From a virus: DNA of 42,766 nt. Below the pieces are notes generated by a model. It was not told the origin of the DNA and ran no database searches. It saw only the letters and a list, made by a program, of their open reading frames with translations. Shown here piece after piece: positions 1 through 42,766 of this stretch. The first letter of the stretch is position 1. Every line of letters starts with the position of its first letter. Both the position numbers and the translations under genes were made by a program. The DNA lies in IMG/VR virus record IMGVR_UViG_3300017967_000057, positions 1-42,766 of that record; one strand, given 5' to 3'.

Positions 1-830
1 ATCAGCGTGTTCTGAGAACCGACGAACTCGCACTCAAACTCCTGCGCGAACTGTTCCTTTGAGGTGTTGCGGATTGTAGATTCTTTCCACTCCTCATCTC
101 TCCCCGGAACCTCGGACCAGTGTACCTCCACTGGAACGTATTCCGACTTTCCCTCGTTTGCGTCCATCCACATTCTGTAGAAGTGATTCATACCACAAGG
201 GGTAGAGATGATCACCATCTTGGTGGTCTTACCAGAAGAGATGGTCGGATATGTGGATGCGAAGAACTCTTCAGCGATGTGTCTGGGAACGAATGCGAAC
301 TCGTCCAGCAGCAGCATGTTGAACGATCCACCTCGAATGGCGGAAGAGGAGGTGGATGCTGCGATGATCTTCGACCCGTTCTCCAGTTCGATAGATCCCT
401 TGTTCCATGCAAGAACACCCTGCTGTAGAAAGAACGGAAGGTTTTCGTATGCGAGCTGATAGCGAGCAAGAATGTCACGCGCAAGCTGCCCTTTGTTAGC
501 CAGAATAGCACAGTTCACATTGTCGTTAAATAACGTATAGTGTAGGAAATATGCGACGACTGTTGTTGTCTTTCCTGTCTGGCGTGGGAGCTTACCGATC
601 GTAAATCTATTGTCATGGATCGTTCGGATGATCTTCTCTTGGAAGTCATACATCTCGAAAGGAACTAGACCTTCATCCAAACTGACAATCTTGACATAGT
701 TGCGAACGAAATAAATCGGATCTTTCGCACACTTCACATACTCTTTGATTTCGTCTGGGGTGTATTCGTGATTGACACCTACTTTTTTTAGTAGGGGATT
801 ACCTTGATAGCCATCTTCTTCTGTTGCCAT
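1..830 (-). CDS. gp17: Terminase large subunit gp17, N-terminal ATPase part (cut by window edge)
   Basis: This is the DNA-packaging motor ATPase that pumps genome into the prohead. I translated it by hand from the ATG at 830; 276 codons are present and the gene runs off the left edge, so the C-terminal nuclease domain is not visible. Walker A LPRQTGKTT is at residues 81-89, Walker B MLLLDE at 172-177 with the catalytic glutamate, and the STP coupling motif at 209-211, all as expected for T4-type gp17. The start overlaps the end of the upstream gene by 32 bases and has a weak AGGGAAAG ribosome site. Identification is firm. What is odd is the extra gene separating it from gp16. Confidence 0.95.
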   Translation of the reverse strand, partial: MATEEDGYQGNPLLKKVGVNHEYTPDEIKEYVKCAKDPIYFVRNYVKIVSLDEGLVPFEMYDFQEKIIRTIHDNRFTIGKLPRQTGKTTTVVAYFLHYTLFNDNVNCAILANKGQLARDILARYQLAYENLPFFLQQGVLAWNKGSIELENGSKIIAASTSSSAIRGGSFNMLLLDEFAFVPRHIAEEFFASTYPTISSGKTTKMVIISTPCGMNHFYRMWMDANEGKSEYVPVEVHWSEVPGRDEEWKESTIRNTSKEQFAQEFECEFVGSQNTL

Positions 831-1290
831 TTACTTTCCCTAACACACCAAGCATGATTAATCCTGCTGTGATCATCATTCCAAATCCAGGCTCAGGAAT
901 GGATGTCGTTGTCCAACTTGAACATGACGTGCCTTCACATGCACGCACCATTATCCACCCATTCGGTTCTGGATGAAACACATCAATACCAAAACATCTG
1001 CTCGCGTTATCTGCTATACACAAAAGTATCTCATTTTGCGTTGGTGGTATGAAAATACTTGTGAGATTGTCAATAACAGTCAATGACTCCTGACACATAT
1101 ATTCTATTTCAACGAGTTGATCCTCTGTGCAATCTAACCAGACATTAGATGCCGTTTCGTATGCTTCTAACGGATTGTTTAAGTCTGGATTTCCACTAAC
1201 ATCCTCTATTATTTGTTGCCACTCATGGTAAGTTGGATCAGGCGCATTTTCCGAATATGGTTGAACAAATCGAAAGTTTGTTATGGGCAT
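799..1290 (-). CDS. Protein with PEP-CTERM-like C-terminal sorting signal, inserted between gp16 and gp17
   Basis: This 163-residue protein has no family I recognise over its body. Its end has the three-part PEP-CTERM layout: SIPEPG at residues 130-135, a hydrophobic helix at about 136-151, then a basic tail with RRR at 157-159. In bacteria this tail is recognised by exosortase (EpsH/XrtA family) at the inner membrane. Six cysteines (54, 66, 91, 99, 118, 123) would suit an exported, disulfide-bonded protein. However, there is no N-terminal signal peptide, and an in-frame TGA four codons upstream (1300-1302) rules out a longer start. The ATG at 1290 has an AGGA site 5 bases upstream and follows the gp16 stop by 5 bases. 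A tail-anchored membrane protein is the main alternative reading. Confidence 0.75.
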   Translation of the reverse strand: MPITNFRFVQPYSENAPDPTYHEWQQIIEDVSGNPDLNNPLEAYETASNVWLDCTEDQLVEIEYMCQESLTVIDNLTSIFIPPTQNEILLCIADNASRCFGIDVFHPEPNGWIMVRACEGTSCSSWTTTSIPEPGFGMMITAGLIMLGVLGKVNGNRRRWLSR

Positions 1291-1295
1291 TATTC

Positions 1296-1733
1296 CTACT
1301 CATCAGTTTCGACCTCAGATGTTACATCAATCTCGTCCATCTTTCCCTTGAGAAGCTGTTGAAGCTGCTTTGTAGAACCAGTAAATAATATATTATTGGT
1401 CGTTTGGGTTTTGGGTGCTTCGTTTTTCTGACCAGTCAACTCTCTGATCTTCGTCTGATGATCCATTAGTTTCTCTGCGACTTCAGCAGTAGACTTCATT
1501 ACCGTAGCAAACACCTCGTATGCTCGTGGATGATCCATCGCTTGAGCAAGCGTCAACGCGTCAGCAGTAGCAATACGACCAGACTCCAAAGCAGTCACAA
1601 GAGCATCTCGCACTTTGTTGTAGTCTTTGTATGTGTCACGCGGAATATCAAGCGCGCTCAAAATGCTATCCATCGCAGGGTCGGTTTCTTCACTTTCGAC
1701 CACTACTGGTATGTGTGTTTCTTCATTTTCCAT
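1296..1733 (-). CDS. gp16: Terminase small subunit gp16
   Basis: This is the DNA-recognition partner of the packaging ATPase; in T4 it forms rings that regulate gp17. The product is 145 residues (T4 gp16 is 164). The core around residues 60-90 has the HPRAYEVFATVMK pattern, and the segment NNILFTGSTKQLQQLLK near residues 112-130 is typical of marine T4-like small terminases. The acidic N terminus is variable. The start overlaps the gp15 stop by one base in TAATG, and the gene keeps the T4 order 13-14-15-16. It is followed by an inserted gene rather than directly by gp17. Confidence 0.88.
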   Translation of the reverse strand: MENEETHIPVVVESEETDPAMDSILSALDIPRDTYKDYNKVRDALVTALESGRIATADALTLAQAMDHPRAYEVFATVMKSTAEVAEKLMDHQTKIRELTGQKNEAPKTQTTNNILFTGSTKQLQQLLKGKMDEIDVTSEVETDE

Positions 1734-2875: not shown

Positions 2876-3561
2876 TAGCTATAATCTCCAAATGGGCTAT
2901 CTTCACTTAGATCCAATACGCCCAGACCATCAGTCTCAAGAGTCTGATTATCGGCAATGCTGTTGTCTGGCATTGTGTTTCCTGTGAAGTTAACTCCGCT
3001 TGTGTTCTCATTGAAGCTCTGGTCGATATTTACAATACCTGTGCTGAACGTCTCCTGTGCGTAGCGGAAGTCTTCGCAGCGGATTTCATACATCTGTAAA
3101 TTTCCCACCTGATAGAAGATACTTTCATGCTCAACAAAGTTGATTTCCATGAATGTGCCTTGACGTTGAGCTGCTGTATTTGGAACAGTCAAATCAAAAT
3201 AGATTAAGTCCCCCTCTTTTGGGCGCGAGCGGGTTGCACCTAGATGAACTTGCTCGGAGAGAAGATTATCAAAATCACGAATGGCAAGATTAAGTGTCAA
3301 CGTCTCGCGAATTTCAAGACCAAAGCGAGTGATAATGTCTCGCTCACCGCCCCATCCTTCAGCAGTCGCGACATAGAACGGCAACACATACGCTTCATCA
3401 AAGTAGCGATCCGTGCTTTCTCCGTAGATACTATCCTCTGTTCCCTTGCGCGGAAGCCAATAAGCAGGAACTCCGTAGATGCTAATAGCTTCTACAACCA
3501 GATCCTCGATGAGCTTTTGCTCTGATGGGATATTATATCCGAAGTAGTGGTTTTTAGGCAT
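2875..3561 (-). CDS. gp14: Neck protein gp14
   Basis: This head-completion/neck subunit forms, with gp13, the connector between the portal and the tail. The product is 228 residues (T4 gp14 is 256). The N-terminal FGYNIPSEQKLIEDLVVEAI and the FDEAYVLPFYVATAEGWGGE stretch at about 54-73 are characteristic of the family. The C-terminal 50 residues are low-complexity and acidic. The start ATG at 3561 is preceded by a GGGGTGA ribosome site that overlaps the gp13 stop region. The gene lies in T4 order between gp13 and gp15. Confidence 0.9.
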   Translation of the reverse strand: MPKNHYFGYNIPSEQKLIEDLVVEAISIYGVPAYWLPRKGTEDSIYGESTDRYFDEAYVLPFYVATAEGWGGERDIITRFGLEIRETLTLNLAIRDFDNLLSEQVHLGATRSRPKEGDLIYFDLTVPNTAAQRQGTFMEINFVEHESIFYQVGNLQMYEIRCEDFRYAQETFSTGIVNIDQSFNENTSGVNFTGNTMPDNSIADNQTLETDGLGVLDLSEDSPFGDYS

Positions 3562-3565
3562 CTAA

Positions 3566-4321
3566 TCACCCCATGTAAAAGTCAGTAGGCAGGGTGTATG
3601 AGTCTTTCAGTTCTTGTCGCAGACGTTCAAGGTTCTGTTGAGCTTCTTGCTTGATTGCAGGTCCGTCCAGAGTGACACCACCCGGAAGCTGAATACCAGC
3701 GAATTTGGATAGATTTTGCCCCCACTGCTCTCGCACCAACTCTGTCACATATTCTTTCAGCCACAGATCACCGTAGACTTTTGTATAGCTAGTTGGATCA
3801 ACAATCTTGAACGCCTCAACAACAATATAATCACCGACACTAACATCTGTTTCCCAATCCCAGTCGATATTCAATTTGTTCATGTGCCGAGTAAATCGAA
3901 TAGGAGCAACACCGACTAATACTTCCTGAAGTAAGGAGAGATGTTGATGATACATTTTATAGCCTGTGATATTATCTCCCCATGTCGCTGATCCAAATGC
4001 TGTATAATCTTGAAGTCGAAGCTGATACTCAAGATTGAACATACCAGATCCACCCACATTATTCTCTGGTAGAACTTGCGTGATATTTGTATATGTATCT
4101 GAATCAAAAGTGATATACTTATTAGTGATGTCGTCTGCCGTTATCTGATACGGTTCATATACCTTTTCGGTAGCGTCCATATGAAACTCTTGCCACATCT
4201 TCAGAGCTTCATCCAGGCGATCCTCTAACTGCTCGCAATCTACATTGATTTCGATGACAGGTTTTCCGAGACGCCGGAGCGCATATTCGATTAGACTGTC
4301 CCTGCTATTTGGAACTGCCAT
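3566..4321 (-). CDS. gp13: Neck protein gp13
   Basis: This is the neck ring subunit that binds below the portal and closes the packaged head. The product is 251 residues (T4 gp13 is 309). Family features seen are the N-terminal helix SRDSLIEYALRRLGKPVIEI, the DCEQLEDRLDEALKMWQEFH segment at about 28-47, and the C-terminal KQEAQQNLERLRQELKDSY helix. The TAG stop of the upstream gene doubles as the start of its ribosome site (TAGGAGAAG). It opens the neck/terminase block 13-14-15-16-17. Confidence 0.9.
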   Translation of the reverse strand: MAVPNSRDSLIEYALRRLGKPVIEINVDCEQLEDRLDEALKMWQEFHMDATEKVYEPYQITADDITNKYITFDSDTYTNITQVLPENNVGGSGMFNLEYQLRLQDYTAFGSATWGDNITGYKMYHQHLSLLQEVLVGVAPIRFTRHMNKLNIDWDWETDVSVGDYIVVEAFKIVDPTSYTKVYGDLWLKEYVTELVREQWGQNLSKFAGIQLPGGVTLDGPAIKQEAQQNLERLRQELKDSYTLPTDFYMG

Positions 4322-8100: not shown

Positions 8101-9633
8101 CCGCGCACGGTTTGATCCCATCCAAATCTCAGCACCTTCGCCTGTGCTGTACCCACCATCCATCAAGAAGGTTGTACCACTCGACGCGCCTTGGCCAGCA
8201 GAGGCTCCTGCGTTTGCAGAACCGAAGATGAAATATGTTGTCGCATCAGTGGGGGCAATACTAAAGATATTATTAGCCTGCCCTGTCCAACTATCATCAA
8301 TAAATTGCGTCAACCGCACTCTGGATTGACCTGAATTGGTATCGTAAACATCCCACGCAAACTTTCTACCAGCAGTGTAAGTTGCTTGTGGATTTTCCAT
8401 CTTAAAGACTGGGCGTGACCGAGTCTTTTCTCCGCCAGGCGTATCATCACCACGAATCATCAATCCACCGTAGTTGGAGCCTGTTTCAAATGTGTGCTGA
8501 ATGAGAAGTTGTGACCATTGCATGTTTCCATCAAGAATGGTCCAATTAGGAGCAGCACCTCTAGAGGTAGATAGATCAAGATAGTGAGTATTGGAAATCA
8601 GCACAGCGCCTTGGGCGGCTGTTCCTGTGATGTCACCACCCGGAATAACCTTCATCACCTTCTCTAGCAGGCCTGCTCCGCTCCGAACAGAGAACTCAAG
8701 CGACGATGAAACGGATCGAGCAAGATTGTCATCATCCTCTCGATTGATTTCTGCGGAAATGCGCGCACCAACAGAATCTTCTGTTGTGGTATCAGCACCA
8801 TTCGCTGCGAAGTCCAGAGCAGCATAGGTGTTTGCCTTTCGTGCTGCGGTCAGCGTTCGATCGCCAATGAGAATGCGAACGGGAGGGGTATCATTGACTC
8901 CGACTCCACCATACGCATCAGTATATCCACGAACGGAGAGAAGAGGAGCGGTGTTGGATGTCTGTGGGTCGTGATTAACAGCACGATCAATGCGAAGCTG
9001 TGCGGCTAGATGTGCAGTTGGTCCACCATGCGGCGCGATACCTGAGATTTCTCCACTGTCATCGACGGCTGAGTTTTCACCTGAGGTCAAGGTAAATCGA
9101 GTGGCCGATGATGTATCGACTGTATTTCCCCATCCCCATGATTCTGAAGCGTAAATATGATCAATCTCATAATCTGTGTACGCCGTTCCCAGCGTAATCA
9201 TACCAAAGCGAGATGTGGTATTTGATGTGACGGATAGGAATCCGAAATTATTTGCTTGAGGATATGATGCTGTGTTTGATGCTTGAAATGAAACGTAAGA
9301 TATACCTGAAGCTGTATTTTGAGAGAGATTTAACTTCGCGTTTCCAGAGTTATTATAAACATGAATGTGTCCGTTTATATTCGGATCGTTAGCACCAAGA
9401 AAGCTACCAACACCTAATCCTGCCGTGCTTAAAATGTAGAGTGCGCCTGGATCAAAAGTAGGAATAATACCAGAAGAGTTGCCGTCGATTACTCCGCCTT
9501 GACGGGTAATGTCTCCTCGCACAGTAGATGGAAGACCATTTACAACATCAATCAACTCATTAACAGTTACTCTGAGCTGTTGAAATGTATGTTTTCCAAG
9601 GAGCTTCTGAACTTGTATCGTATTGACTGGCAT
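5164..9633 (-). CDS. Large tail fibre / receptor-binding protein
   Basis: This 1489-residue fibre probably recognises the host surface. The N-terminal 40 residues (FQQLRVTVNELIDVVNGLPS) look like a baseplate attachment segment shared with marine T4-like fibres. The long Gly/Asn/Thr-rich shaft has repeated turns of the form GxGxxxPxxxLxV at about residues 569-584, 766-775, 923-939 and 1063-1083. The C-terminal domain at about 1290-1480 is a beta fold containing VTKVGIGRFQIQLPAGF, typical of fibre tips. I see no C-terminal S74 intramolecular chaperone. The start overlaps the preceding gene in TAATG, and a probable assembly chaperone follows directly. Confidence 0.82.
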   Translation of the reverse strand: MPVNTIQVQKLLGKHTFQQLRVTVNELIDVVNGLPSTVRGDITRQGGVIDGNSSGIIPTFDPGALYILSTAGLGVGSFLGANDPNINGHIHVYNNSGNAKLNLSQNTASGISYVSFQASNTASYPQANNFGFLSVTSNTTSRFGMITLGTAYTDYEIDHIYASESWGWGNTVDTSSATRFTLTSGENSAVDDSGEISGIAPHGGPTAHLAAQLRIDRAVNHDPQTSNTAPLLSVRGYTDAYGGVGVNDTPPVRILIGDRTLTAARKANTYAALDFAANGADTTTEDSVGARISAEINREDDDNLARSVSSSLEFSVRSGAGLLEKVMKVIPGGDITGTAAQGAVLISNTHYLDLSTSRGAAPNWTILDGNMQWSQLLIQHTFETGSNYGGLMIRGDDTPGGEKTRSRPVFKMENPQATYTAGRKFAWDVYDTNSGQSRVRLTQFIDDSWTGQANNIFSIAPTDATTYFIFGSANAGASAGQGASSGTTFLMDGGYSTGEGAEIWMGSNRARFYEDPTGRPDTWIIDNNASTQFRIFPRNSLGYDGDTNYKTFTNAGLFAYKSSSANTYWGFGTNVPQYAIHVDREREDATVWVESEYGATAPKDDTRARVIVTGAGNDFAVTQAINPNRTYPTGGFANLKDGKVPFISYQTNLAAGSIGTSARYIHNQNWNVNGIGTGISFRIDAQQGTGDGNAVTDHNDGWAYDMGYIGVRTGEGGALPGFGARSFLIGNTQDNRTGFGSLTISLRDRARYNASKQILHVTAEGHLGLGNPAFGATGGNQNKDSISIINPSWSLDITKHRQPGDTTANTMIAMSLHDVGHSNGNAGNRTWLFGINNDFKGVGKSTDPFVFTGIQGRTLGNPLGTHTQKTTNMQDGILAMEMRDDKMHMQIFQIGLRPEHNTLTVYTPANTTSTNWGGSYAGRVGIGNTFPGYTLTVNGYNADSSGVAVYGAEAGVRLIDPSPTHAAYTWSSADGDEALTDPGGAAGGSVVPERTYHIGSRHGSLSIAQNLGPNDTNIHNTSKNITVSVLANTSLYSPTSSHASLDKRIYIPENLGEDWYSGGSVGINANSHPLAAGLYVTDVPAGDRDGRRRIFTQKAVIQLGATAASDENYGHYPTNVVLGLRPIPNANGAFKPISVVAGSTSNLSNQSSVGNGNIMKRTEGLRRFSEGWIDGAGTGPSAATLSNWNNLGWFDGISVDNSFAIPAPGIGSEFFGTSAMADDTFMGQQSMKVWWERRPQRDNDKANYQNQEYTESHLFGSSNNHVMTIHANTTYQGVHVEKGGIYANNSVIAWARLLPRGINQNPIVAADTTETGYASPPTFAWDGHNIQSVTKVGIGRFQIQLPAGFQNGNNYSLIVTGTSNLYLAGLFEQDLNDGAVSAGELDTVLTRRRQFEASGTGTSPGQIIGLQGSGSTNDGLVDYGALSTHHVRVANSTYIQIESRTPITDWYRAEGSGKVTRNSSSTALIDEDEVYVVVIGAVDPAKFRG

Positions 9634-9848
9634 TACTTATCCTCGATTAGCTTTTGTACGAGTTCTTTGAGCATAGATAACTCATTTTTCATACTATTTA
9701 GCTCTTCTTTTTTGACTCGCTGTCTAGCAACTTCTTCTTCGTGTTGCTTTTTCGCGTTTTCATCTACACAAATAATAGCACCGCTTTGCAGATCACGAAC
9801 CCATCCAAGTTGATCGGTCTTTACATACTCTGAATTTATTTTGCTCAT
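9633..9848 (-). CDS. Small coiled-coil protein of conserved T4-like type
   Basis: This 71-residue protein starts at the ATG at 9848, which follows the upstream stop by one base and has a GGTGGAA ribosome site. An in-frame upstream start (9878) would overlap the previous gene and is less likely. Residues about 10-30 (LGWVRDLQSGAIICVDE) form a small conserved head, followed by a charged helix with heptad spacing (EELNSMKNELSMLKELVQKL). Similar small proteins are common near structural genes in T4-like phages, but I do not know their role. Its position between the DUF4815 protein and the fibre suggests a fibre or baseplate accessory; this is inference. Confidence 0.65.
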   Translation of the reverse strand: MSKINSEYVKTDQLGWVRDLQSGAIICVDENAKKQHEEEVARQRVKKEELNSMKNELSMLKELVQKLIEDK

Positions 9849-9849
9849 T

Positions 9850-12800
9850 TTATTCCACCGCAATAGCGCGCATATCATAGATAATCGGGACGCGAGTAGA
9901 ATCGCTTGTCTGCATTAAAATCTTGATTGCGAACTCGTTGAATGACATATATCGTTCTCCTTGTCCTGATTCTGAGTCATCAGATACAGAGGTATATGCA
10001 AATGGAAATGTGTCGTCCTCTCCTGTTCCTCGGAATACCAATTCCCGTCTCAATCCCTTGTCACCTGAAATCTGAGAAGCATCTGATGTTGATTGACCAA
10101 GAAGCTGCCATGGCTTGTCATCAAAATCTCCGGGGTCCATCGAAGATCGCACTTTGGCAAAAACATGAACCCTTGCTGTCTCAGGGACAGAAGCAGAAAG
10201 AATCACACGAATATCTCTTGATTCAACTCCTTGCTTCAATCGCACGCGCTTCGACACATAGCGAGCTTGGAAGTTACCCGGATGCTTCGGATCATCTTCA
10301 CCTATGTAGGAGATTACTGCTCCAGTCGTCGGTGTGGACCCTGTCACCGAGATGGTTGGTGCAGTCAGATATGTTTGCCCTTGATTCGTTAGGTTGAATC
10401 CGATAATACCACCAGTAGAGTTGGTGACTGGATTTCCAGCAGCACCCGCTCCGACCTTACCCGATCCCGTAGTGATCACGAGCGTATCGGTATTTGCGTA
10501 GCCAAGTCCACCACTCTCAATGTAGAATCCACCACCCACGACTGTTCCGTCACGATACTTGCGGCTGTATGGCCATGTGTTAGCGTGAAGTCCACCATTG
10601 TTGACGATATTCTTAAAGATCGTCAAGCTCATTCGCTCCAAGTTTACGATTGGAGAGAGATCAGGAGAGGAAGTTGAGAGTGTTCCTCGGAGTAGAAATG
10701 ATCCTGTCTTGTCCTTCAGGATGGTCATTCTTCCATTTGGATCAATCGTGTTCGTTGACATATTCAACGACTTATATCCATCCGTTTCGCTGAACTCAAG
10801 TGTGAATGGATCAGGTGGAATAGTCTCACCCGGTCGCGCACAGTCATACTCCCAGTTAACGCTCGATGATGGAAACTCCAGTGTAGTCGTATCTATTCGA
10901 AACTCATCAAAGTTGTAATCGTTCTGCCACAGCTTAAACTCTGTTGCATTTGAGTATGGAGTTGAGAGTGTACCGGGAATAACATTATTGATGTTTGGGT
11001 GCCATAGAGGCTGATTTATACGAGTTGTAGCAGATGCCGTGGAATCAGAAATAGCATTTACTGTCTTCCATATAATCGTGGATGGCGTATCTGTGGTGAA
11101 GATACACTTATGAATTGCGAACATGAGATCCTGATCCTGTTCTGCGGTCCACGTTACACCATTTTGAGATTTGAAGAACGATCCGTAGTGACTGTTTTTA
11201 TCCACAATCTTCTCTGCTACACCAGTTGTTCCGCCCGTTCCAACGAGTGCATCACCCATCTTTGCTGTCCATACAACATAGTCAAGAGAGTCAGATCGAA
11301 GAACAATAGCATATTCTTGTCCAGCTTCAAGCATCAGAGGGCGATCAAATGTAAATGTTGTTTGACCTGTGTTAAAAGTGGGAGTTGAAGTTGTCGTGAC
11401 AGCGGAAGGGAGCAGTGTTTTGCTTGCAAGTACCTTCGATCCACTTGGTACTCCTGAACTTGTTGGTCGAATCTCCAGCGTTATCGGCAACTGTGTTCCA
11501 GCATTATCACGATGCTTTGTTTGGAACCAAATATCAACTGCGTTGATAAAAACACCACCGGGATGAAGATTGTGATCAATAACAAACGATTGTGCTACAG
11601 GATCAAAATATTTGATGGTATCTCCTGTGAGCTGTTGTCCAAGAGAAATATCTTCAGTTGAGGATCGAGAAATTTCTCGTTGTTCTGCAATATCAGTAGT
11701 GATCTTTATGATGTCGAAGACGCTTCGGTATCGGAAAGTATCAATCGTACCTGTTGAACTAAAAACGCCTTCAACATGCGTTGTTAAATCGGATTCAAAT
11801 GGATCTGGAGATGAGCGCAAAGAGAAATTCTTCTGCCCTGATGGAAATCGCAATCTATCATTTGTTCGCTGATCGGACACAGCAGCCTGGTTCCAATATT
11901 CATCATCTGTATTGAGTGCTTCGATATACTCCTGAGCTGTTCGATTAGCATAAGAATAGTTAGGAACATAAAACACACCGTAGGATTGTCCTGCCAGATC
12001 ACTATACAGTTCTCCGATTGAGAAACGCGAGTCGGTGTTTGGCTGCAAATCCCAAGGGAAGTCAATAGTGACAACACCAGTGTCTTCATCAAATTCAATG
12101 ATCTCTCGATTCTGCCCGTATCCACGTCCTTCTACGATGTAAAGTTTACGTCCGTATAGATCAACTTCCGGTGAATATGTCGTCGAGGCTCGGGCTCCAA
12201 CAGAAGTTGTTCTCCAATGGATTTGTCCGTATGCTCGCGTGTCGAAGAGCTGAATCGTTGTTGTCGTCGGATGATTGAGAATACTTCCTGAATATTGCTT
12301 ATATTTGACAACAGTAACAGGAGGTGTTGTACCACTAAGTGATCGGTAAATTGTCGATCCAGCAACGAATGTTCCGTTCGCAGATGTAACGTAGATAGTA
12401 TTTGCAAACGCTCCAACTGCCATTCCAGAATTTCCGTTGGTGGCATTTCCGATTGCTTCTTCTTCGCGAATGTCACCATAGCCGTCACCAAACGGATTGC
12501 TCCATGCAGTTTCAACTGGATTCATTTGAAGAACTAACTCATTTGCACGCTCAACGTAATTATCTACGTTTATACCATCAAAAATTGGATAAATTGTTGT
12601 TCGTGGCTTGAGTCCTTTTGCTCTAAATGTAATATCAACTGGACGCATATAAGGATATACTATGTCCGAGATTTGAACATCATCAACGAGTATTGTATCT
12701 TCGTCAGTGGCGAAACGAACCTCAACTCCTTGTCGCGTAGATAACCCAGTTTCAGTTGTGATTGTTCGCTGAATCAACTCGTCGGTTACATTTACCTGTC

Positions 12801-32361: not shown

Positions 32362-33252
32362 CTATCGTCCCTTGATGTCCTTGATCACTTCTTTTGGAGC
32401 ATTTGCCATTACCCACTTATGGATCTGACTATCAACATATGTGTTCTTCTCGAATTTTCTACCCTCGCGCTTTACGTCGATGCTCGTAAAACTCTTGACG
32501 AGCTTGACAGGCTCTCCTTTATTCTTTCCCCACTTCGGCACTCGCTCTGAATTGTCGAAGAACACCGTCTCTTCATTGTTGTTCAATATAACAGTGATGC
32601 GCCCGTTAAGCCCTCGCGGAACATTGCCTCTGACAATATCCATCATCGTAGTAGCAGCTCCCGTATGTGTCTGTTTAAGAATGTATTCAGGAACTCTCCG
32701 AGGTCGTGTTTTATTGCGATCAATCGCAACGGTAAAGTTTGTGAGAATCCAGACGAGATGAATATTTTCTGGTTTGTATCCAAGAGATAGTAGCATTGGA
32801 ATGTTTCTGGAAACCTGATTGAGATTTTTCATGGTGATGTCAAATACGATATTCGGAAGGCGATCTGCGTTCTTTGCCCCGGCAAGAAGCAGATCCAACG
32901 TCTTCTCCTTCCATCCAAGCTGATCGACCATATCGTGAAGGCGGAACACATCCTCTTCGTTCTTTAGGTTCAGTTCCGAAGCGCGAACACCAAACTTAGC
33001 CTTGGTGTCGATACCCTTTTGCTTATATCTGTCATCCGTTTCCGCAGCAATCGCATCTAGCTTCATTAGAGCCTTTTTCCACTCGTCTACGTCACGCACC
33101 TTGAACTTCTCAGGTTGCATGAAGTTCTCCAGAGCGAATCCCTTACCAGAAGCAGCACCACCAGCAAGAAACACCACCTGACCATAATTCTGCCCCTGCT
33201 GAAACATAATAACTTTCTCATCTAACTGTTGGTGTTCGTCGAAACGTAACAT
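32362..33252 (-). CDS. P-loop kinase-like protein inside the baseplate hub operon
   Basis: This 296-residue protein has a Walker A motif GGAASGKG at residues 31-38 after a hydrophobic strand (VVFLA). Downstream are a FDITMKN segment and an NKTRPRRVPEYIL stretch, a layout like zeta-toxin/nucleoside-kinase type P-loop proteins. Its substrate cannot be told from sequence. I set the start at the ATG at 33252 because AAGGAG stands 6 bases before it; a longer frame start at 33315 would overlap gp27 by 53 bases without a site. It lies between gp27 and gp5, an unexpected place for an enzyme. Confidence 0.75.
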   Translation of the reverse strand: MLRFDEHQQLDEKVIMFQQGQNYGQVVFLAGGAASGKGFALENFMQPEKFKVRDVDEWKKALMKLDAIAAETDDRYKQKGIDTKAKFGVRASELNLKNEEDVFRLHDMVDQLGWKEKTLDLLLAGAKNADRLPNIVFDITMKNLNQVSRNIPMLLSLGYKPENIHLVWILTNFTVAIDRNKTRPRRVPEYILKQTHTGAATTMMDIVRGNVPRGLNGRITVILNNNEETVFFDNSERVPKWGKNKGEPVKLVKSFTSIDVKREGRKFEKNTYVDSQIHKWVMANAPKEVIKDIKGR

Positions 33253-33258
33253 GATAGT

Positions 33259-33264
33259 CTCCTT
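33259..33264 (-). promoter_or_regulatory. Ribosome binding site deciding the kinase-like gene start
   Basis: AAGGAG overlaps the gp27 TAA stop and is 6 bases before the ATG at 33252. It argues against the longer reading from 33315. Confidence 0.7.
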
Positions 33265-34597
33265 AGGTCGGAATTGTTGTTTTATCAAAAATTGTTTTTG
33301 TTGGTAATTTTTCAAACATAGAATCTTTTATAACCCTCATGTGCGTAGTAAATCGTACAGATCCAGCAGGATTGCGCGTAATCTCTTGTCGAAGAGAGTG
33401 TATTAGGTAACGACCTGATAAATATTTATCATGTTGTCCGCGATACTCATCATAATTGTTGAGGCCGCGAGACGGAATGTCAAGATGGATAACCTCTCCA
33501 ATCGTTCTTTCTGAATCCCCAGGCACAGAAATTCTCATGGACATATTATCAAACTGTGCTAATTTTGACATTCTCGCCAGTTTAGTTTCATATGTTCTTG
33601 ATGCAGAAATGTCGTCTATCTTTGAATATGCGTAACTTTGTTTTGGTACGATAACAAAACAAGAATCACTCAGAACTCCAAATCGTTCATCATTGTGAAT
33701 TTTGTAGTCGTTGAGATTGACTTGATTGAGTTTATCATCGTAGTAGTTTAGAGATTTCTTTTGAATTGTGCGAAGAATTGGATCATGGATCAATATCGTC
33801 GATGCGTATGTACCATCCTCAAGCATAACAAGATGATTTTTGGTTTGCGGAATATATACACTCATATTCGTAAAGCCTTGTTGAACATCATCCAAAATTT
33901 CTTGTGAATTTGCAATACTAACAGAATAGTTTGCAACAACATTCGTATTCTTTTTGTCGATTAGTGCCTCAATAGGAACAAAAAAGTATCCAGTTCGATT
34001 TTCAAAAAATTGAAAAGTTGCAGCGTCTCGATATAAAGGAGACTTTGCCCACTTAGCAAGCCAATTAATTGCTGCAATCGGAGAGATATTTGGAATCACT
34101 TTCGAATCTGGAACAAGGGTGTCTGCAACGGTAAACGATTTTCCTGATGCGGGAGCAAGATACTGCGTGTGGATGTCTTTTACCATATCACTAATAAATG
34201 TATTGTTGTATGATTTTCTAACCTTGAGTGATTTTGATCTTACAAACTCCGCCGAAACAAACTCCAACACGACAGTTTCAGAACCCTCACCGCCCGTACT
34301 ACCAGTACGGGTCGGAATATCTACAATGTACCCAACTCTTTCTTCATAATCAAATGCACTTGCTGTTTTATAACGAATAACAATACGATCATTCATAAGA
34401 ATTGGAGTTGTTTGTATTAGATTCTGTGTATCCTCAAACACTAATTGACCGAGGATATAAGATTTGGTCATATCCTCAAAGAATGTGATATTTTCCCAAA
34501 TTGTTGAAATATCGAGGGGTATATTATTTTCCGAAGAATATATCCATACTGAAGATACTTGTACGTCACCAGGCTTTTGCATCTTATCTTGAGTCAT
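33263..34597 (-). CDS. gp27: Baseplate hub protein gp27
   Basis: This hub ring protein links the tail tube to the gp5 spike and is structurally related to gpD/VgrG hub proteins. It is 444 residues (T4 gp27 is 391). Supporting features are the N-terminal two-barrel region with ITFFEDMTKSYILGQLVFED at about 37-56, an RSKSLKVRKSYNN segment near 120, the AINWLAKWAKSP stretch at about 176-187, and a C-terminal SGRYLIHSLRQEI strand. It overlaps gp53 by ATGA and lies one gene upstream of its partner, the gp5 OB domain. Confidence 0.87.
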   Translation of the reverse strand: MTQDKMQKPGDVQVSSVWIYSSENNIPLDISTIWENITFFEDMTKSYILGQLVFEDTQNLIQTTPILMNDRIVIRYKTASAFDYEERVGYIVDIPTRTGSTGGEGSETVVLEFVSAEFVRSKSLKVRKSYNNTFISDMVKDIHTQYLAPASGKSFTVADTLVPDSKVIPNISPIAAINWLAKWAKSPLYRDAATFQFFENRTGYFFVPIEALIDKKNTNVVANYSVSIANSQEILDDVQQGFTNMSVYIPQTKNHLVMLEDGTYASTILIHDPILRTIQKKSLNYYDDKLNQVNLNDYKIHNDERFGVLSDSCFVIVPKQSYAYSKIDDISASRTYETKLARMSKLAQFDNMSMRISVPGDSERTIGEVIHLDIPSRGLNNYDEYRGQHDKYLSGRYLIHSLRQEITRNPAGSVRFTTHMRVIKDSMFEKLPTKTIFDKTTIPT

Positions 34598-41479: not shown

Positions 41480-42463
41480 TTAGTCACCAGCAGGAATCAG
41501 CCCTCGATCTGATAGATAACCATCCACACCGATGGCACCATCCGAAGTAAACTCTTCGACGAACTCACGAAGACCTTCAACCTTGCTATAATGAGCAGTC
41601 TTTACATAGAAATAAAGTGCGCGCGAAATAGGATAAGATCCATCAGCGATGTTCTCGAAGGTGGGCTCGTTTCCGTTTACGAGACTACCCTGAATCTTAT
41701 CTGCGTTCTGATCCAAAAACGAAAATCCAAAGATACCTAAAGCAGTTGGATTCGCGTTTAGCTTCTGAACAATCAGATTATCATTCTCACCTGCTTCAAT
41801 GAACTTTCCATCTTCTCGAATATCGTGGCAGATATTCTTATATTGTGCCTTGTCGATTTTCTTCAAATCCTTGATGAAAGGAAAAGTCTTACACCCACCC
41901 TCCATCGCAAGCTCAACAAATGCGTCACGAGTTCCGCTTGTGGGAGGGGGGCCAAACACTTCGATCTTTACATCAGGAAGTGTTGGATTGATCTCTGCCC
42001 AACTTGTGTATGGGTTTTCAACAAGCTCATTTGATTCGTTAGGAACATTCTTGGCAAGAGCAAGAAACACATCGCGTAGTGTAAGTGAATACCGCTTCGA
42101 CTCCTTGGCATTGGCAATCACGATTCCATCAAAACCAATCATCACCTCATCAATCTCGGTGACGCCATTGGAATTACACATATCAATCTCGCTCTGCTTG
42201 ATACGACGAGATGCGTTGGTAATGTCAATAGGATTGTTTCCACCCACTTCAGCGCAGAACAACTTCATTCCACCACCCGTTCCAGTTGATTCAATAACAG
42301 GTGTCTTGAAATCAGTCTTTCGACCAAACTTCTCTGCGACAACAGAAGAGAATGGATACACTGTAGATGATCCAACGATTCTGATCTGTCGATCATGGTT
42401 ATTCGCAATCGCTGGTGTCGTAGCCAAAATACCAAATACAATAAAACAAAGTAACTTTCTCAT
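41480..42463 (-). CDS. pstS: Periplasmic phosphate-binding protein PstS
   Basis: This 327-residue protein is the phosphate receptor of the high-affinity PstSCAB ABC importer; it would deliver phosphate to the host's own PstCAB. Residues 1-20 form a Sec signal peptide with a likely cut after AIA. Ligand-site motifs are visible: GSSTVYPF at about 32-39, ESTGTGGGMKLFC, NASRRIK, and PPTSGTRDAF near 171-180. The sequence resembles alpha/other proteobacterial PstS more than cyanobacterial forms (from memory). AGGAG at 42470-42474, overlapping the porin stop, precedes the ATG by 6 bases. It is the last gene before the terminator. No PstC, PstA or PstB genes are present. Confidence 0.96.
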   Translation of the reverse strand: MRKLLCFIVFGILATTPAIANNHDRQIRIVGSSTVYPFSSVVAEKFGRKTDFKTPVIESTGTGGGMKLFCAEVGGNNPIDITNASRRIKQSEIDMCNSNGVTEIDEVMIGFDGIVIANAKESKRYSLTLRDVFLALAKNVPNESNELVENPYTSWAEINPTLPDVKIEVFGPPPTSGTRDAFVELAMEGGCKTFPFIKDLKKIDKAQYKNICHDIREDGKFIEAGENDNLIVQKLNANPTALGIFGFSFLDQNADKIQGSLVNGNEPTFENIADGSYPISRALYFYVKTAHYSKVEGLREFVEEFTSDGAIGVDGYLSDRGLIPAGD

Positions 42464-42472
42464 AGCTATCTC

Positions 42473-42766
42473 CTAAAACAAAATCTGTGTTCTTGCTTGA
42501 ACGATATTCAAATCACCACCGGGAGCAATGTCAGCCCAAACGTAGTTTAGTGAAATCTTCAGGTTCTTTCGATAGAACCAGTTGACGCCTGCTGTCACAT
42601 TCTTCTCAGTTCCACCACGAATATCATTGTCATTTGCGTCAAGATATGAGAAGCGTGTTGCGACTTGCCAAGCTCCGATCTTCTTATCGAGTGGATCGAC
42701 TCGGTTATTGAACTTGCCGAGATTTCGATTATAGTTTCGATGTTCTCCAGTTAGATAATAACTAGC
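42473..42766 (-). CDS. Phosphate-selective porin O/P, C-terminal end (cut by window edge)
   Basis: Only the last 97 codons are present; I translated them from the edge in frame to TAG at 42473. The product shows Porin_O_P (OprP/OprO) C-terminal features: YYLTGEHRNYNR, GAWQVATRFSYLDANDNDIR, GGTEKNVTAGVNWF, then alternating strands and a terminal phenylalanine (ILF), the signal for outer-membrane barrel insertion. Such porins pass phosphate or polyphosphate across the outer membrane. Its stop overlaps the pstS ribosome site and lies 9 bases before pstS, so the two are co-transcribed. The promoter and N terminus are beyond the window. Confidence 0.88.
   Translation of the reverse strand, partial: ASYYLTGEHRNYNRNLGKFNNRVDPLDKKIGAWQVATRFSYLDANDNDIRGGTEKNVTAGVNWFYRKNLKISLNYVWADIAPGGDLNIVQARTQILF

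Follow-up and report, generated by a model that had tools for sequence, protein, structure and literature searches.

The closest described system to the protein analysed here is that of the PEP-CTERM proteins (TIGR02595/PF07589) with the exosortase EpsH/XrtA (TIGR02602). Shared features are a Pro-Glu-Pro motif, a membrane helix and a C-terminal basic cluster, together with a body that has few basic residues and a moderately raised share of Thr, Ser and Asn. A signal peptide is found in about 97% of PEP-CTERM proteins (PMC1569441), and the positive-inside rule was applied to them by Haft et al. 2006 (PMC1569441). The genomic site has described counterparts as well, i.e., Sullivan et al. 2010 (PMC3037559) count the interval between gp16 and gp17 among the cyanophage hot spots, and the hot-spot genes of cyanophages S-PM2, Syn1 and Sf-FR1 occupy the same insertion site as the gene reported here. 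PEP-CTERM tags turn up readily in IMG/VR contigs, though no paper on phage-encoded exosortase tags was found in the literature searched.

The window, i.e., the whole stretch of 42,766 nucleotides that was analysed, carries the T4-type terminase and baseplate genes of a marine T4-like (Kyanoviridae-type) phage, and its terminase is nearest to those of cyanophages and pelagiphages. An ORF of 163 aa (799..1290, minus strand) lies between the genes for the terminase small subunit gp16 (1296..1733, minus; phrog_445, E 7.8e-28) and the terminase large subunit gp17, which is cut by the window edge (3..830, minus; phrog_5989, E 2.8e-61). Five nt separate this late-operon gene from the gp16 stop, and its last 32 nt overlap gp17, so that the gp17 start codon lies inside it. 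The protein consists of an N-terminal body (residues 1-130; 901..1290, minus), the motif IPEPGFG (residues 131-137; 880..900, minus), a hydrophobic helix (residues 138-151; 838..879, minus) and the basic tail KVNGNRRRWLSR (residues 152-163; 802..837, minus), whose Arg cluster (814-822, minus) falls within the overlap and is covered out of frame by the 5' end of gp17. The C-terminal order is thus SIPEPG, hydrophobic helix and NGNRRRWLSR, and the full tail reads SIPEPGFGMMITAGLIMLGVLGKVNGNRRRWLSR. The acidic body has a net charge of -17 over residues 1-129, with six Cys, no Lys and three Arg (3 basic residues in 129) and with 8.5% T, 7.0% S and 7.8% N; its Cys content is 4.7% versus 0.4% typical for PEP-CTERM proteins. 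Neither hydropathy nor the reading frame gave an N-terminal hydrophobic stretch or signal peptide. A longer start is ruled out, since stops occur in frame just a few codons ahead of the first ATG. The start without a signal peptide is conserved, because a homologue read at the end of contig L012, where gp16 is 82% identical, begins at the same position with MPITKF. These observations bear out the earlier note in its description of a SIPEPG motif, a hydrophobic helix and an RRR tail at 799-1290, of a cysteine-rich body, and of a missing signal peptide with a stop barring a longer start. AlphaFold2 models had a mean pLDDT of 36 and 40, and a sequence search of the PDB gave no meaningful match.

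The same note regarded the ORF as inserted cargo on the premise that gp16 normally adjoins gp17. The insertion is supported by the nearest gp17 relatives (L018-L020), in which the gap is almost closed. The premise does not hold for marine T4-like phages, where the two genes are usually non-adjacent (PMC3037559): among the sampled relatives having both genes the interval ranges from an overlap up to 3634 nt, and S-PM2, Syn1, Sf-FR1, Sf-CH11 and Mosig have one to six small genes in this interval. Because the gap varies and the hot spot is documented, we regard the ORF as hot-spot cargo. A PEP motif with a helix tail was present in none of roughly 150 other gap ORFs in related phages; the hot-spot ORFs of S-PM2, Syn1 and Sf-FR1 also differ from the 163-aa ORF in this respect.

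Profile searches place the tail at the border of the PEP-CTERM class. TIGR02595 matched neither the window protein nor its relatives, and PF07589 scored the isolated tail at 12.4-13.0 bits, below its cut-off of 20.7; Pfam found nothing on the whole 163-aa protein and no match on the tail of the divergent homologue in contig L229. NCBIfam gave weak matches with the 163-aa protein (E 0.049-0.25) and with its 40-aa tail (E 0.006-0.21), and all matches of the protein, its tail and L229 fall on the C-terminal ends of PEP-CTERM models. With a tail HMM built from 109 PEP-CTERM tails in IMG/VR contigs and used at its softest setting, the real tail reached 12.5 bits and the training tails at least 24.6 bits. 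None of 2000 full-composition shuffles reached the score of the real tail, which is average among shuffles keeping the PEP, helix and basic tail, where 934 of 2000 did. When the real tail and 49 shuffles were run against NCBIfam, TIGR02595 matched 15 of the 50, the real tail not among them. The shuffle and profile outcomes indicate that the resemblance lies in layout and motif and not in the usual LGLGLLGL helix text. A six-frame scan of the window and related loci gave 1478 ORFs of 60 aa or more; 38 of them terminate in a helix with a basic tail, and the 163-aa ORF alone has a PEP immediately ahead of these. The protein therefore has the PEP motif, the helix directly after it (mean hydropathy 2.0 in the window, 2.3 in L229) and the C-terminal basic cluster (RRR and RRRR, respectively). 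It lacks a profile score above cut-off, a signal peptide and the Cys-poor body of PEP-CTERM proteins, and differs from them further in I instead of V before PEP and in being phage-encoded with packaging genes. As the profile, signal-peptide and cysteine features all fail, we report the tail not as a PEP-CTERM member but as a variant with a possibly similar action. The reading of the tail as a PEP-CTERM-like sorting signal thus survives as a real layout kept by selection but not as formal family membership.

Phage-linked PEP-CTERM tails are not unique to the window, because other IMG/VR contigs have them. When IMG/VR was searched with a pattern for the canonical tail, 94 of the first 98 examined among the matches listed were C-terminal PEP-CTERM tails. 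These viral-class contigs (L098-L217) resemble the window in that at least 7 of the 20 such records tested also carry a terminase large subunit; those without one could be host flank or pieces of prophage. Their proteins differ from the 163-aa protein in having canonical VPEP...LGLGLLGL tails, in most cases an N-terminal hydrophobic stretch, and unrelated bodies. Two of these unrelated proteins, in L126 and L106, score above the TIGR02595 cut-off; like the 163-aa protein they lack a signal peptide and have stops just upstream of their starts. The L126 protein (3239-3682) overlaps a purA-like gene, and that of L106 (672-1214, minus) adjoins a DUF5906 (primase/helicase-type) protein. Canonical tails are encoded by many of the L098-L217 contigs, with one recurrent family ending VGTSIGSFTSSVSGTFSA..VPEP. 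In the region of about 8600-11618 of the 184-kb phage contig L117, a PEP-CTERM-tailed protein rich in Lys and Pro is encoded about 1 kb upstream of the gene for a subtilase-family protease (9990-11618).

Homologues of the ORF are present in nine other IMG/VR contigs, eight of which hold near-identical copies; the close homologues are 94-100% identical and carry little information by themselves. The divergent homologue in L229, which was found by a DNA pattern for the motif, has a body 60% identical over 101 residues and keeps all six cysteines. Protein and DNA-pattern searches yielded no body homologue besides it, a GTDB scan with the 163-aa protein found no relative, and tblastn against phage isolates, with the protein or its tail peptides as query, gave only chance matches or none. 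The PEP motif near the C-terminus is conserved in every homologue covering it. Between the window and L229, IPEPGFG differs by four synonymous changes, among them changes in the Pro-Glu-Pro codons, and by no amino-acid replacement; of 116 windows of seven codons it is the sole one free of replacements (permutation P 0.027, a test that depends on this one divergent homologue). The helix drifts in sequence (pN 0.36, body 0.225) and is still hydrophobic. The basic tail is constrained in the gp17 overlap, where none of the 4.7 synonymous sites in gp17 codons 2-9 has changed; beyond it pS reaches 0.92 (codons 10-20) and 0.74 (codons 21-88). Because a control pair without an overlapping gene (L018, L020) has a gp17 pS of 0.86 in codons 2-9, the suppression is not merely a start-codon effect. 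These codon comparisons support selection for the layout of PEP, helix and Arg tail. A sorting tag behaves in this way, with its motif and basic tail conserved and its helix text free to change. A second conserved PEP, in HPEP[ND]GW (residues 106-112), indicates that a PEP can persist in this protein for other reasons. In L229, an intein-like insert breaks the reverse-strand gp17 frame immediately past the Walker A segment GKLPRQTGK; this insert begins ALSLDTPIPTPYG, contains LAGLIDADG-like segments and is absent from the gp17 of the window.

We hypothesize, with a confidence that stops close to even, that the 163-aa protein is a late product held in the membrane and exposed to the periplasm, and that its tail works like an exosortase tag and is either cleaved and sorted or occupies the enzyme. 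Made from the packaging operon, the protein would be anchored in the host inner membrane by its single C-terminal helix. Under the positive-inside rule the Arg cluster would be cytoplasmic; the acidic six-Cys domain would then be periplasmic, and the PEP motif would lie at the periplasmic surface of the inner membrane, within reach of a host exosortase. The enzyme would then cut the protein and sort it towards the surface or be occupied by the tail, presumably to the benefit of the phage. The N-terminal domain could cross the membrane without a signal peptide by N-tail translocation, which for a domain poor in basic residues is known from E. coli ProW. This route has been discussed for YidC substrates (PMC8920935). 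The lack of a signal peptide and the many Cys speak against exosortase handling it as a usual substrate.

The main competitor, which we consider quite possible though we would not favour it, is a small single-span phage membrane protein, e.g., for superinfection exclusion or lysis timing, in which the conserved IPEPG caps the helix or makes a protein contact and has nothing to do with exosortase. It would account for the lack of a profile match above cut-off and of a signal peptide, for the second PEP in the body and for a helix text unlike that of candidate host tails, which carry LGLGLLGLG. It sits poorly with a PEP-helix-Arg order and spacing that are the textbook layout, with a PEP and Arg tail kept while the helix drifts, and with the roughly 150 gap ORFs of related phages, none of them similar. 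The same shuffles that match the score of the real tail once PEP, helix and basic residues are kept, and the low information in the close homologues, could also be read as a chance resemblance that arises from scanning very many proteins, the ORF then being hot-spot cargo without a membrane role. We give this reading little credence, as it is already disfavoured by the divergent L229, in which motif, helix and Arg tail are all retained and the Pro-Glu-Pro codons have changed synonymously; the synonymous suppression in the gp17 overlap also speaks against it.

The orientation of the anchor can be questioned as well. A cytoplasmic protein inserted tail-first, with its N-terminus inside, the Arg tail outside and the tail serving purely as an anchor, would need no signal peptide and would avoid moving a large N-terminal domain out by N-tail translocation, a mode of export that is difficult for domains of this kind. 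An Arg cluster outside would break the positive-inside rule and the six conserved cysteines would sit in a reducing cytoplasm, which makes this topology barely credible. If the exosortase-like tag is real, a virulent-type phage that keeps it under selection ties infection to exopolysaccharide-linked protein sorting, and a tag without a signal peptide raises the question of the route by which the substrate reaches exosortase. A wider and rather unlikely extension is that proteins with a PEP-CTERM tail and no signal peptide form a phage-borne class (the 163-aa family, L126 and L106), whose members would reach exosortase from an N-out anchor and jam it or ride to the surface, as a strategy against hosts dependent on exosortase-linked exopolysaccharide.

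The clue to the host lineage is a PstS-like phosphate-binding protein (41480..42463, minus; PF12849, E 5.1e-46). The closest PstS proteins found are up to 67% identical and belong to one order of Pseudomonadota, with members of which the phage PstS groups in a tree with moderate support (92/78); two rows of this tree (G047, G132) have very long branches and odd composition, probably from a wrong frame, and leave the phage placement unaffected. An exosortase above cut-off is present in 18 of the 20 best sampled genomes by closest pstS versus 66 of 398 (17%) in the phylum sample, and PEP-CTERM proteins above cut-off occur in 14 of 16 of the closest-pstS genomes. In many sampled genomes of that order (G473, G440, G431 and others) pstS and the exosortase gene are about 8-10 kb apart. 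Five MAGs with binned gp17 relatives have no exosortase; host inference from them was dropped, their gp17 identity of 54-66% being too low. An exosortase-bearing host, as the earlier note had suggested, is therefore plausible through pstS kinship but indirect, and no more than that because the order seems generally exosortase-rich and pstS can come from elsewhere. Next to pstS, the window edge cuts an OprO/OprP-type phosphate porin, of which the C-terminal part is present (42473..42766, minus; PF07396, E 2.5e-19); it had no match among phage isolates, and a phage-encoded outer-membrane phosphate porin adjoining PstS would be unusual. Elsewhere in the window, a gene within the tail/baseplate cluster (32362-33315, minus) encodes a zeta-toxin-like domain (PF06414, 28.2 bits, cut-off 22.3).
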